DNA of 64,000 nucleotides from contig JANWYD010000006.1 of NCBI GenBank assembly GCA_025057155.1, forward strand, positions 124,001 through 188,000, written 5' to 3'. How positions within the stretch are numbered: the first letter of the stretch is position 1; each line of letters starts with the position of its first letter. The notes beneath the pieces are model-generated. The model did no database searches, was not told the DNA's origin, and saw only the letters and a program-made list of their open reading frames with translations. The position numbers and the translations under genes are program-made. Below are positions 4,934 to 31,029 of this stretch, piece after piece. Source of the stretch: Chloroflexaceae bacterium (GTDB taxonomy: Bacteria; Chloroflexota; Chloroflexia; Chloroflexales; Chloroflexaceae).

Positions 4934-5133
4934 TTCCTGCGGTATTGCCCGCGCGCGCACCATCGTCAATCCAAAATCCAAAATCCCAAATTGAAGGCCG
5001 CGCCCACGACCCGCCCGCTTCCTGCGGTATTGCCTGCGCGCGCACCATCGTCAATCCAAAATCCAAAATCCAAAATCCCAAATCGAATTTCCTCATCCAA
5101 ACCGCAGGTCATTAAAGGCCGCGCCCACGACCC
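4934..5133. repeat. Direct repeat with embedded heptads, period 85 bp
   Basis: A block starting TTCCTGCGGTATTGCC at 4934 begins again at 5019. It passes through GCGCGCGCACCATCGTC and a run of ATCCAAA heptads, and ends AAGGCCGCGCCCACGACCC (4994-5012 and 5115-5133). The second copy carries an extra heptad and about 28 additional bases. This is a recent local duplication in the region upstream of the transporter gene. Confidence 0.85.
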
Positions 5134-5259
5134 TTCCGCGCTCGTCATGGCGCGCCGATTTGCCGCCCGATTTCCGCTGCACCTCCGATACAACCCGATG
5201 CGGATGCAGGGTAATATAGTCCACCCGGCACAACCGTGGCGTCAGACCGGCGGCCAGCG

Positions 5260-6710
5260 TTATCCGCTGGGCCTGGATTTCTTCCGGGCGCAGGCCATAT
5301 TCACATCGAGCACGGTGGCCTCGCGGAACAGCCCGCGCGCCCGCGTCTGCGGCCCGAACAGCAGATCGTCGGCCAGTTCGCGCAGGGGGCCACGCAGCCA
5401 GGCCTGCACCGGCACCAGCATGCCGCTCTTCGGGCGGTTCAGGATCGTCGGCGGCAGCAGGTCGCGCACGGCCTGCTTCAAGATCCACTTCTCCTGCAAC
5501 CCACGCAGCTTCCAGGACGGCGGCAGGGCGAACGCTGCGTCAATCAGCGGCGGCGCGAAGAGCGGAGAACGCCCTTCAATGCCGCTGGCCGTGGTCAGAC
5601 GCTCGACCTTGGGCAGGATGTGGTGCGCCCTTGGTGCGGAGGTTGGTGTACAGCAGGCGGTTGAGGAAGGCGGTCATACGGGGCGATTCGAGGTACGGCT
5701 CCACGCGCCGTTCCAGCGGCGGCGCGTCGCGCAGCGCGTCGAGCGCTGCGGGCGTCAGCAGGCGCTCGAGGTCGGCGTAACATTGCCAGGTGCTCGGCAA
5801 TGCGCCTGCCCTCAAAGGTAAGGACGGTATGCGCGGTGCGGCAATGGGCGGCAACCAGCCCGGAATAGGCCAGCTCGTTGGGCAGGTCGCCGCCGAAATT
5901 GATCGCGTAGGTGCGCACCGGATGCTGGTGCAGCCGCGCCGCCAGGGCCGTGACCAGACTACTATCAATCCCGCCGGAGAGGAACACCCCGACAGGCTGG
6001 CCCGCCGGCAGGCGCGCAGCGACCGCCTCTTCGAGCAGGGCGCGCAGACCGCGCGCGCGGCTCTCCGGCAGGTCGTCCGCGTTCCATGCGCCCTCACGCG
6101 GCTCCCAGAACTCCTCCTCGTAGCAGACGCCCCCGGCGCGCAGACGCAAACAACGCCCGGGGCGGGCCTCATACACGTCTTCAAGCAGGGTCTCTTCGCC
6201 CGGAAGGTAGGCGAAGGTCAGAAAGGCGCGCACCGCGTTCAGGTTCAGCCGTGCGGCCAGGCGCGGCCAGGCGCGCAAGGCGCGCAGCGAGGCCGACGCC
6301 GCCCGGTCGCCGCCCGCGCGCGCGTAGAACAATGTGCGCGCACCGGCGTGGTCGCGGGCCAGCACCAGCTCCTCGCCATCCAGGATAGCCACCGCGAACA
6401 TGCCGTCAACCGGCGTGAGTCTCGCAGCGCCGTAGCGCGCATACAGGTGCAGCAGCAGCGTCCCATCGGCGCAGTCCTCCGGCAGCCCTACCCCGTCGCC
6501 ACACAGGCGCCGGCGCAACTCGCCGCGATTGAACAGCGTCACCGGCCCGGCGGCGACCAGGCCCTCGGCATGGAACACGGCGCTCTGGCAGCCATCAGGC
6601 ACCAGACCCAGGGCCAGACCGTTACGCGCGGCGACCGGCGCGGCCCCCATCGCCGCCAGGGCCGCTTCGGCCCCGTTTGCATCTAGAGTGGCGCAGAACC
6701 ATCCTCTCAT
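5260..6710 (-). pseudogene. Broken asparagine synthetase (glutamine-hydrolysing) gene
   Basis: The first 305 or so codons encode the glutaminase-like and ATP-binding parts of an AsnB-type protein, including the pyrophosphate loop SGGIDSSLV. After EHLAM (near 5781) the frame shifts and joins directly to CYADLERLLTPAALDAL. The middle of the synthetase domain expected there, with its GEGGDE-like motif, is absent. A second frameshift near 5620 leads to LPKVERLTTASGIEGRSPLF and KWILKQAVRDLLPPTI. The reading breaks off after FREAT near 5310. The usual Cys2 of the glutaminase is also missing (the start reads MRGWFC). An internal deletion plus two frameshifts argues against sequencing error. The ATG overlaps the upstream stop (ATGA). 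Confidence 0.85.
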
Positions 6711-7333
6711 CCAAAATCTCCGTCGAAATCGCCGCCGCCGAAATCGCCGTCTCCGAAATCGCCGCCGTCGGCTTCTACCGCCTCCAGTTCGGCGCCCTGG
6801 CCCGCATCACCGCCCTCACCGCCGTCGCTATCGAATATGTAGGTTCCAGAAGACGAGTCGCCCCAATCGGTCGAGCCGCCATAACCGCCGCTTGCAGCCT
6901 GTTGCTGCTCGGCCAGCTTCGCTCGCAGGGCCGCTTCCTGTTCGGGAGACAGAATATCCGGGGGCGGGATGAGCTGTCCGAGCACGAACCCGGCGCCCAT
7001 CCCCATCAAAATCTGCCCGACCCGCCCGCCGAACGACGTCTGGTTAACCGTCAGCACCCTGCCGCCGTACCAGAGCGTGCGGCCATAGCCCTGCTCGCGC
7101 CCGTACACCACCCGGCCATTCGACAATTCACGCTTAATGATCCCATCGCCGAGCAACTCATCAATGCCCGAATACCCCTGGCTGTCCTGCCACTCGACCC
7201 GGCCATCGGGCAGGCGGCGGCGCCATTCGTAGTTCTCGTCGCTAAAGGCTCGACGCACGCTGCCGTCGGCAAGGAGTTCATCTTTGTAGGTTATCACGCG
7301 CGGATTGAGTTGCACAGGCTCTCCTTCCCTCAT
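6707..7333 (-). CDS. Uncharacterised protein with Gly/Asp-rich acidic tail
   Basis: A 208-residue protein with no recognised family. Residues 1-85 are polar and contain imperfect repeats of a DGxxxRxxSxxxxEW type. A single hydrophobic stretch around 100-122 (VGQILMGMGAGFVLGQL, then PPP) may be a membrane segment or amphipathic anchor. An Ala/Gln/Glu segment follows, then a tail of about 45 residues made almost only of Gly, Asp, Phe and Glu, ending in GDFG units. The start at 7333 is chosen because its ATG overlaps the TGA of the upstream gene (ATGA); the stop likewise overlaps the next ATG. The three genes are thus translationally coupled. Confidence 0.6.
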   Translation of the reverse strand: MREGEPVQLNPRVITYKDELLADGSVRRAFSDENYEWRRRLPDGRVEWQDSQGYSGIDELLGDGIIKRELSNGRVVYGREQGYGRTLWYGGRVLTVNQTSFGGRVGQILMGMGAGFVLGQLIPPPDILSPEQEAALRAKLAEQQQAASGGYGGSTDWGDSSSGTYIFDSDGGEGGDAGQGAELEAVEADGGDFGDGDFGGGDFDGDFG

Positions 7334-8298
7334 GCAGGCCAGCTCATATAGCCGCTGGCAGGCCACCGGCGGAGCTGCGCCAACCACGGTTCACGGCGCC
7401 GCGCCGGCTGCGCGATCCGGCGGATTGCGCGCGGCAGGGCCGGCGGATGCGGCGCGGCCAGTTCCGCCCGATAGCCTGCGCACAGCCAGGCGCGTTCGAG
7501 CGCATTCAGTGACGCGGGCAACTCTGCTGCGAAGCCGGGTTGTCGCGTGGCAAAGAGATGCATGCGCAGGGCGTGCCGCGGGCGCAGCCCCGGCGCATGA
7601 ACGCGCAACCCGCGTGGCGGATCGAGGAGTCGCCTCGCCTCGACAACCAGACGCAGCCCTTCGGGACTCGCGTCGTGCAGGAGCAGCACCCGCGGCGCAG
7701 GGGCGCGCATCAGCATGGCCACCAGCGCGTCTGGCAGCGGCGTGGCCTCCTCCAGCGACAGAACGGCGCACGCCAGCTCCATATGCAACAGGTTCGCCCG
7801 CAGCATCCGCGCCAGCGCAGCATCCTGGCACACCAGCGCCAGCGCCATACCATAGTCGTACAAGTCTGGTTCGCGTCCGACGAGTGCACGGGGCGAGGGA
7901 GGAGCATCAGGCAACAGCCCGGGCGGATCGCCGTGACGCGCGCGGTAGGCCATCAGCGCCCGGTCGAAGGCGCTTTCACTCAGGGGCGGCTTGAGGGTAA
8001 AAGGCATCGCGCGCACCAGGCGCGGCGCAGACAACCCTACCGCCGATCCCGTCAGGCCTGTCCACACCGGAGGCGCGCCCTGCAGCGCCAGCAAGCCCGC
8101 CCCGGCGGCACCCAGCATCCAGGCCGACGCGCGGATCACCCGCTCCGGCGGCAGCAACGTGCGGCAGACCGCGTAGTAAAGCTGGCGACGAGTGTAACGC
8201 ACCCCGCCCGTCCCGGCGCGGGCAATCCCCCGCGCCAGCGCCGTCTCCAGGTCCGGCGTCCCTGGAAGACGTCGAGGCGGACACCATTCTCCCGACAT
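7330..8298 (-). CDS. Unknown family protein, paralogue 1 (RYT-QL-YY / LLLHDAS-EG type)
   Basis: A 322-residue protein that I cannot assign. An N-terminal RYTRRQLYYAV segment (residues 34-44) is followed by one or two hydrophobic stretches (57-92). The C-terminal half is shared with the genes at 8309-9073 and 9282-10565: LARMLRANLL, PRVLLLHDASPEG (His208-Ser211), GLRPRHALRMHLF, a Pro-rich helix and the end GYMSWPA. It lacks the Cys-rich ribbon of paralogue 3. The start is the second of two adjacent ATGs, spaced best from the GAGGGG ribosome site. Overlap with the downstream gene indicates coupling. A resemblance of TRRQLYY to the catalytic-Tyr segment, and of HDASPEG to the Toprim acidic motif, of Spo11/TopoVI-A proteins is noted only as speculation. 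Confidence 0.65.
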   Translation of the reverse strand: MSGEWCPPRRLPGTPDLETALARGIARAGTGGVRYTRRQLYYAVCRTLLPPERVIRASAWMLGAAGAGLLALQGAPPVWTGLTGSAVGLSAPRLVRAMPFTLKPPLSESAFDRALMAYRARHGDPPGLLPDAPPSPRALVGREPDLYDYGMALALVCQDAALARMLRANLLHMELACAVLSLEEATPLPDALVAMLMRAPAPRVLLLHDASPEGLRLVVEARRLLDPPRGLRVHAPGLRPRHALRMHLFATRQPGFAAELPASLNALERAWLCAGYRAELAAPHPPALPRAIRRIAQPARRREPWLAQLRRWPASGYMSWPA

Positions 8299-8308
8299 CA
8301 TCCCCCCC

Positions 8309-9073
8309 TCAATGCTCTGGCCAGGACATAAACCCGATCGCCTGCGCCTCAATCTGGGCCTGATGTTCGGGATCTACCTGGGACGGGCGAACCGGCGCGA
8401 GCCGTTCAACCGCCCGGGTGACGACGTGAACCAGCTTCGCCGGCGGGATGAAGCGGGCCGGGGTCACATAGCCCTTGCTCAGCCACTCAATCTCCTCTTG
8501 CTCCAATGCTGGCGCGCCGGACGTCCGCGCCCCCGATTCTAGCAGCCTGGGCAAAAGCTGTCTGACCAGTTCTCGTCGCTCTTTTCGCCAGGGCCAGTGC
8601 CACCGCCGCACCTGCGCCGGACGCAACCCCAGATCGACGATCCGATGGTTCGGCGCGAGCTTCCACTTTTCTGGCAACAGATCACGCAATAGCGCTCCCT
8701 GCAGACTGGCATCGTGCAGCAGCAGGATCGGCAGCCGCGGACGTTCCCGCAGCAAGGCGAGCACCCCTTCCTCGGCCTCGCCACGGGGTTCCTCGAAAGG
8801 CAGCAGCGCCAGATCCAGGCGCTCCGGCAGACCATTCGCCCGCAAACAGTCGAGCACCTCCAGATCTGGCGAGACCAGCGCCGCGCGCAGGCGCGACGGC
8901 GGGGGCTGATACTGGCGCAGCCGCGCAAGCTCCTCCCGGGTCACGCGCCCTGGCAACTGTCCGTGGATACGCTCCCACGGGAGAACATAAGTTTGCTCGA
9001 AGCTGTCAGCCAGGGTGAAGACCGTGGCTGACAGCTCCTCGAACTTTCGCCGTAGACGCGGGTACGAGGTCAA
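8309..9073 (-). CDS. Unknown family protein, paralogue 2, N-terminally truncated
   Basis: A 254-residue protein that matches only the cytosolic part of paralogue 3: LPWExIHGxLPGRVT (31-45), VSPDLEVLDCLRANGLPERLDLALL (split by small changes), LLLHDASLQG (117-126), DLGLRPAQVRR, TRAVERLAP and the end GFMSWPEH. It has no zinc ribbon and no membrane segments. The first possible start is TTG at 9073 with no clear ribosome site. Just upstream, out of frame, is a remnant of the N-terminal module (9074-9195). The gene may therefore be a decayed copy, or a shortened gene still expressed. Confidence 0.55.
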   Translation of the reverse strand: MTSYPRLRRKFEELSATVFTLADSFEQTYVLPWERIHGQLPGRVTREELARLRQYQPPPSRLRAALVSPDLEVLDCLRANGLPERLDLALLPFEEPRGEAEEGVLALLRERPRLPILLLHDASLQGALLRDLLPEKWKLAPNHRIVDLGLRPAQVRRWHWPWRKERRELVRQLLPRLLESGARTSGAPALEQEEIEWLSKGYVTPARFIPPAKLVHVVTRAVERLAPVRPSQVDPEHQAQIEAQAIGFMSWPEH

Positions 9074-9195
9074 AGTGCCTACGGTGAGGAAAATAACGTA
9101 ACACCGTAAAGTAACCGAGCTGCGACGCCGTATAGCGATACGCGCCCTGCTGGCTCAGGCGTGCAGCCAGGCGGCATTGTAGCAAATCGCTCTTA
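9074..9195 (-). pseudogene. Remnant of the N-terminal module of paralogue 2
   Basis: Read on the minus strand, this segment encodes LAARLSQQGAYRYTASQL and a few flanking residues. That matches LAEYLSRRGSYRYTTAQL of the paralogue at 9282-10565. It lies in a frame one base off the gene that follows. The zinc ribbon before it and the membrane segments after it are missing, consistent with deletion and frameshift. Confidence 0.65.
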
Positions 9196-9281
9196 AGGCC
9201 GTATTAAGAGCCAGTTTGGAGGCCTCCTTGAGGAGGGTCTGGGAGGGCTTCACCCTTCTAGCGCATAACCGGACACCCTCC

Positions 9282-10565
9282 TTATCCGATGACGTTCTGC
9301 CCGTCCGTGCCTGCCCGGAGCATCGGCCAGGTCATATATCCGATTGCCCGCGCCTGCGCATTGGCGAGCGAGTCAACGCCGCGGGCGGGCGCGTACCGCT
9401 CCACCGCTCGGGTAACCAGCGTAACCATCCACGCGGGCGGCATAAACAGCACCGAACTGTTACATCCCTCGCGCAACCAGGCCAGTTCGTCCTCGCTTAG
9501 TCTGACGCGCTGCTGGCGTTGGGCCTCCTGCTCGAGGCGCTCGAGCATCTGGGGAGACGGCGCCGGATCATAGGTGCGTGGGAGGATAAGGGTTTTCATC
9601 CATCGGCCGCGTATAGTGTACTCGGTGAAACGATGGGCACGCATCGCCTGGCGCGGGCGCAGGCCGAGGTCCAGGACACGCTGAGAAGGGGCCAGGTCCC
9701 AGCGCTCAGGGAGCAGCGCCGGGAGCAGGCATCCCTCCACGCTGGCGTCGTGCAGCAAAAGCAGCGGCACGTCGGGCCGGGCGCGCAGCAGGTCCAGCAC
9801 GCGCTCGTCGGCCTCGCTGAGCGGACCGTCAGGGTTAAGGAGCGCTAGCCCCAGGCGTTGCGGCAGGCCGTTGGCCAGCAAGCAGTCGAGCACGTCGAGA
9901 TTTGGCGAGGCGAGCACGGCCCGCAGGGGAACAGGCGGCATGTAGGCTGCGCGCAGACGCGCTCGTTCGTCGTCAGTCACTCGGCCCGGCAGGGGGCCGT
10001 GGATGGCCTCCCAGGGCAGAATGCAGGAATTTGTCAGTCTTGCCGCGAAAGATTCGATAGTTTGTAGCGTATAATCGTTATAGAGTCGCTTTTTTCTTTC
10101 AGGTTCTGCTTCGAGACCACCTTTGGCGCCAGCGCTATCCGCGCGGAATAATATAATTAAAACATATGAAGAAGTATAGAATACAGTTGAAACAGTTGCA
10201 AAGAATAGGGCCTCTTGCGGCGATTTTACTGAAATAAATATTAAAAAGATTACGATGAACAAGATAAGGGATCTCCGTCCTACACGCCGATATGGCTTGT
10301 CATTACTACTAGAAGATGCAGATATTGAAACTGGCCGTTCTGGCGAGGGAAATCTGCCTTTTTCCCGATTCAGATAGTACACCAGTTGTGCTGTCGTATA
10401 ACGATACGAACCGCGGCGACTGAGGTACTCTGCCAGACCGCGCAGGCTTAGGTCGCTCCATCCATCAACACGCGGCTCCAGGGCAAAGGGCTTCTGGCAG
10501 TGCGGGCAGCGCCGATCGCGGCGCTCGCGGTACTTCAGGTCAACACGGCAGTGGGGGCACTTCAC
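9282..10565 (-). CDS. Zinc-ribbon membrane protein of unknown family, paralogue 3 (full-length form)
   Basis: A 427-residue protein. A zinc ribbon at the N terminus has Cys3, Cys6, Cys20 and Cys23. An RYTTAQLVYYL segment (55-65) follows, then two membrane segments (about 98-113 and 118-140) and a charged cytosolic part. The cytosolic part holds LPWEAIHGPLPGRVT, a segment starting VLASPNLDVLDCLLANGLPQ, LLLLHDASVEG (269-279), GLRPRQAMRAHRF, TRAVERYAPAR and GYMTWP. The start is GTG at 10565 behind a GAGGTG ribosome site. The stretch coding the membrane part (about 10070-10350) is far more AT-rich than its surroundings. Function is unknown. Three diverged copies in 3.3 kb indicate local duplication. 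Confidence 0.65.
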   Translation of the reverse strand: MKCPHCRVDLKYRERRDRRCPHCQKPFALEPRVDGWSDLSLRGLAEYLSRRGSYRYTTAQLVYYLNREKGRFPSPERPVSISASSSSNDKPYRRVGRRSLILFIVIFLIFISVKSPQEALFFATVSTVFYTSSYVLIILFRADSAGAKGGLEAEPERKKRLYNDYTLQTIESFAARLTNSCILPWEAIHGPLPGRVTDDERARLRAAYMPPVPLRAVLASPNLDVLDCLLANGLPQRLGLALLNPDGPLSEADERVLDLLRARPDVPLLLLHDASVEGCLLPALLPERWDLAPSQRVLDLGLRPRQAMRAHRFTEYTIRGRWMKTLILPRTYDPAPSPQMLERLEQEAQRQQRVRLSEDELAWLREGCNSSVLFMPPAWMVTLVTRAVERYAPARGVDSLANAQARAIGYMTWPMLRAGTDGQNVIG

Positions 10566-17903: not shown

Positions 17904-17936
17904 CAATCCAACATCCAAAATCCACAATCCGAAATG
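17904..17936. repeat. Heptad repeat (ATCCAAA)n, copy 4, degenerate
   Basis: Four imperfect units, with ACATCC and CACAATCC variants, lie 50 bases upstream of the lipoprotein gene. Confidence 0.8.
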
Positions 17937-22537: not shown

Positions 22538-22543
22538 TGCGAC

Positions 22544-22577
22544 TTTGGATTTTGGATTTTGGATTTTGGATTTTGGG
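22544..22577. repeat. Heptad repeat, inverted orientation
   Basis: Four to five units of TTTGGAT, the reverse complement of ATCCAAA, begin 7 bases after the fabI stop. Confidence 0.9.
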
Positions 22578-27433: not shown

Positions 27434-27476
27434 CCATCCAATCCGAAATCCAAAATCTAAAATCTAAAATCAATCC
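27434..27476. repeat. Heptad repeat, degenerate copy after lon
   Basis: Five to six units with ATCCAAA, ATCTAAA and ATCCGAA variants fill most of the 101-bp gap between lon and the convergent SH3 gene. Confidence 0.85.
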
Positions 27477-30879: not shown

Positions 30880-30900
30880 CCACGGCAAAAGTGCATAGCG

Positions 30901-31019
30901 CTCATCAAGAGGGGTGGAGGGACCGGCCCGATGAAGCCCCAGCAACCCCCCGGAGCGGCGCCGCGTCGCGCACCGGCCTGGAAGGGTGCTAAGTCCGGCA
31001 GCGCAAGCTGGGAGATGAG
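30901..31019 (+). promoter_or_regulatory. SAM-I (S-box) riboswitch
   Basis: P1 pairs CTCATC (30901-30906) with GATGAG (31014-31019). Conserved core elements follow the class order: AAGAG...GGAGGGA, GGCCCGATGAAGCCC, GCAACC and GGTGCTAAGTCC. S-adenosylmethionine would bind and favour the terminator just downstream, switching off metH when methionine is ample. Confidence 0.93.
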
Positions 31020-31029
31020 GTCATCGAAG

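Follow-up and report, generated by a model that had tools for sequence, protein, structure and literature searches.

To our knowledge, the Spo11/Top6A fold is found, outside the proteins considered here, only in DNA-handling machines. The Top6A active site that we used as reference comprises R102, Y106, E202, D254, D256 and E342 (PMC13040014), with E202, D254 and D256, numbered as in M. mazei Top6A, as the acidic metal ligands. Topo VIII is a plasmid-encoded type IIB topoisomerase, and we gave this name to plasmid proteins from their match to PF21180 and from published descriptions (PMC8185306); their database records read "ATP-binding" or "hypothetical". Adenylation of a peptide's C-terminal carboxylate by asparagine-synthetase-like (AsnB-like) enzymes has also been documented (PMC13060819). 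We analyzed a 64,000-nucleotide stretch of a draft Chloroflexaceae genome (contig JANWYD010000006.1, positions 124,001 to 188,000; hereafter the window), in which three minus-strand genes, A, M and B, lie beside a gene C and a broken AsnB-like gene. By profile comparison and predicted fold, A, M and B belong to an undescribed, derived and mostly membrane-anchored bacterial lineage within the family of type IIB topoisomerase A subunits and Spo11, with Topo VIII the nearest relative by profile. Across the relatives of this cluster, the presence of an AsnB-like gene is associated with a protein ending in Phe-Gly (FG).

Relationship of A, M and B to Topo VIII and Top6A

The initial annotation of this DNA had described three minus-strand open reading frames (ORFs) with a common C-terminal domain and no recognizable family. 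Both statements hold: all four motifs that it listed are present, and Pfam, NCBIfam, PADLOC and PHROGs gave no usable match for A, M or B. Searches of the PDB with single sequences and with a family profile of A, M and B returned chance matches only, and the Toprim model PF21180 was matched below threshold, best in one relative (E 0.033). A link emerged from profile–profile comparison, one of the checks that the annotation had proposed. A profile of 44 members matched the Topo VIII A-module end to end over 221 collinear columns (hhalign 99.0%; E 9.4e-18, for a single comparison), and subset profiles did so independently (A-only 98.2%, B-only 94.7%, remaining members 98.6%). Among control templates with shuffled columns, ∼1–3% gave a spurious 99%, over 5–11 columns only, and all other shuffles scored <1%. 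The match to a profile of TopoVI only was weaker (90%, 68 columns; B alone 0.8%), so the link to Top6A runs through Topo VIII. Large Pseudomonas plasmids encode two Topo VIII-like proteins (L126, L127) whose only annotation is "hypothetical protein".

Structure prediction agrees with the profile match in placing a Toprim core in the family. The best solved match to the AlphaFold model of window B is Top6A (1d3y; Z 12.0, root mean square deviation 3.8, 155 residues aligned), followed by JetD (Z 10.4), small Toprims (10.3) and Spo11 (7.8). For the model of a member from Enhygromyxa, Toprim and Top6A are on top and Foldseek ranks 1–6 are all Top6A; a fold unrelated to Toprim was seen in neither. 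It weighs against leaning on these models that they are shallow (six sequences), with mean predicted local distance difference test scores of 64.6 and 63.6. The second Tyr of the QLYY motif aligns with the Top6A cleavage Tyr. The full-length Topo VIII match, the Toprim core nearest to Top6A and this Tyr alignment together bear out the resemblance to Spo11/TopoVI-A that had been raised tentatively from two motifs.

With the Topo VIII A-module the family shares the collinear full-length profile, a QLYY/QLFY helix, a short linker in place of a long winged-helix tail, HD.D in the Toprim, a GL.P motif and VEL near the end. Unlike Topo VIII, it has no fused GHKL ATPase, has gained a zinc ribbon and membrane segments, has substituted metal ligands and ends in FG or G[FY]M[ST]WP, the latter conserved at the very C-terminus of both A and B across relatives. 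Like Top6A/Spo11, it has the Toprim fold (Z 12.0 and 7.8) and, in B, the Tyr, Arg and clasp Glu columns; unlike them, its winged-helix region is truncated, its metal site is eroded and its partner is missing, the GHKL ATPase B subunit (Top6B, PF09239) being absent from 61 genomes of the order, the window's own included, with four archaeal controls positive. Canonical Top6A (PF04406) was likewise not detected in 41 genomes, again including the window's own. The JetD/MksG nuclease of Wadjet has a Toprim core of similar topology (Z 10.4 and 9.0), but no JetABC-type neighbors were noticed around the family genes.

The alignments indicate that the catalytic site is eroded in both A and B, to different degrees. 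B proteins keep the cleavage Tyr in 15/15, the Arg in 12/15 and the clasp Glu in 13/15. Among A proteins, the clasp Glu (E342) is lost in 17/17 and the Tyr in 9/17, being kept in the other eight; single members retain the Tyr in some cases and not in others. The equivalents of E202 and D256 are mostly gone, and the E202, D254 and D256 columns of window B and A hold Q or P, D and S, respectively, which is not the metal-ligand set. An intact DNA-cleaving site, as the comparison with Spo11/TopoVI-A might imply, is not supported for A or B, whose acidic ligands are substituted. In window B, the E202 position is Q176, beside a conserved Cys175. The DxD motif reads HDAS in most members, with a conserved His directly before the DxD Asp, as in 4/5 Topo VIII proteins. 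Some single-copy relatives outside the operon have a near-complete site (D...HD[AC]D...E with RQLYY). Set against the eroded operon members, these near-intact relatives show that the site was lost in steps.

A-like genes occur in 19/61 and B-like genes in 16/61 genomes searched (the window's own included), mostly as a pair, and the pairing is kept throughout the order to which the window belongs as well as on a plasmid of Streptomyces. The ratio of nonsynonymous to synonymous substitution rates (dN/dS) is 0.17–0.18 in one pair of relatives, indicating purifying selection; in a second pair it is 0.27 for B and 0.45 for A, a weaker constraint. This recurrence and these dN/dS values show that A and B are genes and not chance frames. 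The family is patchy, with members in 15/251 genomes of the window's phylum, in 10/140 of that of Enhygromyxa and on Gloeothece and Streptomyces plasmids; no relatives were found in the viral contigs and phages searched. Although A and B are only weakly linked pairwise (E 0.007), the link is clear at the family level. In a maximum-likelihood tree, A (100/99) and B (100/98) are each monophyletic and Streptomyces members fall in both clades; therefore, as judged from the tree, A and B are ancient paralogues and not products of recent local amplification. The annotation's description of the cluster as locally amplified applies to M, a local truncated copy of A (50% identity, E 2.8e-59), and not to A and B.

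An AsnB-like gene is associated with a C-terminal Phe-Gly

The initial annotation had suggested a survey of the neighbors of homologues and was itself silent on operon partners. The survey identified an AsnB-like enzyme, an FG-tailed protein and a cupin as operon partners. Most family members have an adjacent AsnB-like gene, which is probably cotranscribed with the Top6A-like genes: the intact operon reads X (cupin-like)–A–B–C–AsnB-like–Y, with stop/start overlaps between genes. In lineages without C, the Top6A-like protein itself ends in ...DSFG, ...ADFG, ...VGFG or ...QSFG and lies beside one or two AsnB genes. The FG tail therefore occurs on nonhomologous proteins, C and the Top6A-like protein.

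Tallied by locus, AsnB and FG occur together in 25 cases, AsnB without FG in 2 (one DSG variant and one decayed locus), FG without AsnB in 0 and neither in 15, of which 5 lie at contig ends. An FG end is thus present in 25/26 AsnB loci, that is, in all intact operons but one, and in 0/10 loci without AsnB; for these usable loci the Fisher p is 4e-8, a figure that is weakened by the relatedness of the loci, whose counts are not independent. The rule was written down before five further loci were fetched, and its prediction was correct in 5/5: all three with AsnB end in ...FG and the two without do not, one of the latter being a 3.7-kb contig whose AsnB status is uncertain. FG ends were found in 30/1555 ORFs, nearly all within these clusters.

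The Gly/Asp/Ser tail of the C family is variable and of low complexity. The FG-tailed protein is conserved and 150–450 residues long, whereas the precursor of a ribosomally synthesized and post-translationally modified peptide (RiPP) is a short peptide with a leader and a cleaved core. The ATP-pyrophosphatase signature LSGGxDS is present in every full-length AsnB-like partner. A Met-Cys start is found in none of the partners, and in several the nucleophile position is occupied by Ala or Tyr or is empty; in the window, the AsnB-like pieces keep LSGGIDS and lack Cys2. The lack of Cys2 in the annotated frames fits a ligase that uses ATP better than a glutamine amidotransferase, although alternative starts could alter this reading. 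PesC and TsrC, AsnB-like peptide modifiers, likewise pair an ATP-pyrophosphatase domain with an encoded C-terminal substrate candidate (PMC13060819). They differ from the cluster in that its AsnBs lack Cys2 in the annotated frames and its candidate substrate is large and often membrane-anchored, not a short RiPP precursor. Among the ranked open-access literature results, no paper linked Spo11, Top6 or Toprim proteins with AsnB-like enzymes.

Gene Y, downstream of AsnB (L060–L067), encodes a highly conserved protein of about 475 residues with no solved (PDB) relative and no Pfam match; by eye only, its C-terminal half recalls ATP-grasp ligases. Other neighborhoods vary. At three loci (L059, L149, L151) a cupin-like protein follows a VGFG-tailed member, and nearby ORFs encode large products that resemble secreted lipoproteins and contain low-complexity linkers; at the Enhygromyxa locus among them (L059), both family types are found together with three AsnB genes. 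In another taxonomic family of the phylum (f11), loci L108–L114 encode single Top6A-like proteins, some with a near-intact metal site (HDAD/HDCD), without AsnB or an FG tail, and several of these adjoin a methylmalonyl-CoA-mutase-like gene.

Possible roles of the FG tail and the degenerate Toprim core

We tentatively favor a scheme in which the FG tail is activated by the AsnB-like enzyme and is borne or displayed by the Top6A-like proteins, often at the membrane, with a chemistry that we infer. The enzyme, through its ATP-pyrophosphatase motif, would adenylate a tail carboxylate, that of the terminal Gly or of a nearby Asp, and the activated carboxylate would then be passed to an amine. In single-gene clusters the Top6A-like protein itself would carry the tail. 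In A-B-C clusters protein C would carry it and A and B would hold it at the membrane, serving as scaffold or recognition domains that no longer cut DNA in the metal-dependent manner usual for Toprim enzymes. It is possible, although doubtful on present evidence, that the whole forms an undescribed bacterial ATP-dependent tail-conjugation or tail-carrier system in which the Spo11/Topo VIII fold, originally that of a DNA-cleaving enzyme, has become a membrane platform bearing a C-terminal Phe-Gly tail or offering it to an AsnB-like ligase. The findings suggest that a pathway of protein- or peptide-tail modification has taken over an old fold of DNA enzymes. If true, this widespread, largely membrane-bound branch, with its eroded metal site and its tie to a tail-ligase-like enzyme, would be a clear example of this fold leaving DNA work, and the FG tail would be a genetically encoded, testable candidate substrate for an unassigned group of AsnB-like enzymes.

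Several observations weigh against tail activation. The retention of Tyr, Arg and clasp Glu in B suggests that some function of the site is kept. The residue before FG is not always acidic (VGFG, QSFG), so the atom that would be modified is uncertain. Some AsnB-like partners have a Cys at position 4–6, with true starts uncertain, so that processing could restore glutaminase activity. Lastly, the AsnB gene of the window is broken while A, B and C stay open.

The main alternative, which we regard as unlikely, is that a small molecule or a released peptide is the product of the cluster. The AsnB-like enzyme would then act on a metabolite or cleaved precursor, and FG would be only a docking motif by which the synthetase is brought to a membrane platform. 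Neighbors that would fit such a pathway are the cupin, an ORF resembling aldehyde dehydrogenase in Streptomyces and, in Gloeothece, a diaminopimelate-decarboxylase-like gene, and AsnB-like macrolactam and lasso cyclases are distant NCBIfam relatives by score. However, such genes vary by lineage, whereas FG recurs at the extreme C-terminus, as a free carboxylate beside an adenylating enzyme, and a docking motif need not be terminal.

The residues kept in B, the near-full site of some AsnB-less single members (D...HDAD...E, RQLYY) and the presence of JetD among the top folds could instead point to a membrane-tethered DNA-cleaving system, for defense or plasmid control, that is kin to Topo VIII or JetD/MksG and has B as the active nuclease. 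We consider this improbable: most operon members have substitutions at the DxD and first-acid positions, there is no PADLOC match and no Top6B in the 61 genomes of the order, and the AsnB/FG association would be left unexplained.

LysW is a zinc-ribbon carrier with an acidic tail and an ATP-dependent ligase. The least probable of the three alternatives is that the cluster works by the same logic, as an amino-group-carrier-like system in which the C-terminus of an acidic-tailed zinc-ribbon protein bears an amino compound while biosynthesis proceeds, as with LysW or the pearlin carrier peptides. All three elements have counterparts here and some clusters contain biosynthetic genes, but the proteins are far larger, with a Toprim core and membrane segments, the ligase is AsnB-like and not ATP-grasp, and no set of downstream enzymes is conserved.

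A DNA-topoisomerase role was set aside because Top6B and canonical Top6A are absent from the genomes searched and the metal ligands are replaced.

Features of the window and decay of its copy

The initial annotation had placed an RYT..QL.YY module in two of the three genes and one four-Cys zinc ribbon in the cluster. The module is present in A and B, and the ribbon (CxxC...CxxC), whose Cys columns are conserved among A proteins, in A (Table 1). Membrane segments had been proposed to follow the module; A has two, and B has one marginal stretch by hydropathy. Window A carries a 13-residue extension after GYMTWP. B probably starts at the ATG at 8301, and C at the ATG at 7333, overlapping the B stop. 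The remnant of M's N-terminal module was located by tblastn with a relative's A as query. Since this QL-Y module lies in another frame and the membrane part is deleted, M is a truncated, frameshifted copy of A and probably a pseudogene.

Table 1. Coordinates of the cluster features in the window
Feature	Position	Strand	Description	Basis
Gene A	9282..10565	-	GTG start; zinc ribbon, QL-YY helix, two membrane segments, degenerate Toprim, C-terminal GYMTWP	
Four-Cys zinc ribbon of A	10497..10559	-	CPHC...CPHC, residues 3-23	sequence
RYTTAQLVYY of A	10374..10403	-	position of cleavage-Tyr helix	sequence, alignment
Predicted membrane segments of A	10152..10283	-	two, residues 95-138	hydropathy
HDAS of A	9741..9752	-	Toprim DxD position	sequence, alignment
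Remnant of M's N-terminal module	9090..9191	-	out of frame, RYTASQLGYF	tblastn, sequence
Gene M	8309..9073	-	truncated copy of A; in-frame zinc ribbon, Tyr helix and membrane segments absent	
Gene B	7330..8352	-	RYTRRQLYY, degenerate Toprim, GYMSWP tail	
RYTRRQLYY of B	8173..8199	-	Tyr60 (second Tyr) aligns with Top6A Y106, Arg56 with R102	
HDAS of B	7666..7677	-	Toprim DxD position	alignment
Gene C	6707..7387	-	repeat region, Gly-rich hydrophobic stretch, Gly/Asp/Ser-rich tail ending ...GDFG	
C-terminal Asp-Phe-Gly and stop of C	6707..6718	-	...DFG in 15/16 C family members	
AsnB-like synthetase gene, broken	5305..6710	-	pieces in three frames, about 65 codons missing	
Gene Y remnants	5096..5326	-	conserved operon protein, ∼475 residues in relatives	

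Judged from its sequence, the window copy is decaying and losing function, which the initial annotation had not mentioned. Besides the broken AsnB-like gene, Y is reduced to two pieces, corresponding to codons 81–150 and 448–475 of a relative's Y, and gene X was not found in the window. Such large deletions do not stem from base-calling errors, although misassembly is possible in a draft genome of 189 contigs. Because of this decay, the system is better studied in a relative than in this genome.

A cluster relic is also present in another genome (G005; L078, 3215–7335), where a truncated A lies close to an AsnB 3′ end and the relic adjoins genes resembling, by eye, LysX/LysY/LysZ of the LysW amino-group-carrier pathway. 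In the window, a 58-bp duplicated block at 4934–5076 adjoins the decayed end of the cluster. The heptamer TCCAAAA forms dispersed short arrays at 138–160, 4934–5084, 17907–17929, 22541–22577 and 27442–27471, with 16 near-matches of a 16-mer against 0.01 expected. Away from the cluster, an S-adenosylmethionine (SAM) riboswitch lies at 30899–31021 on the plus strand (Rfam RF00162, E 8.7e-15).
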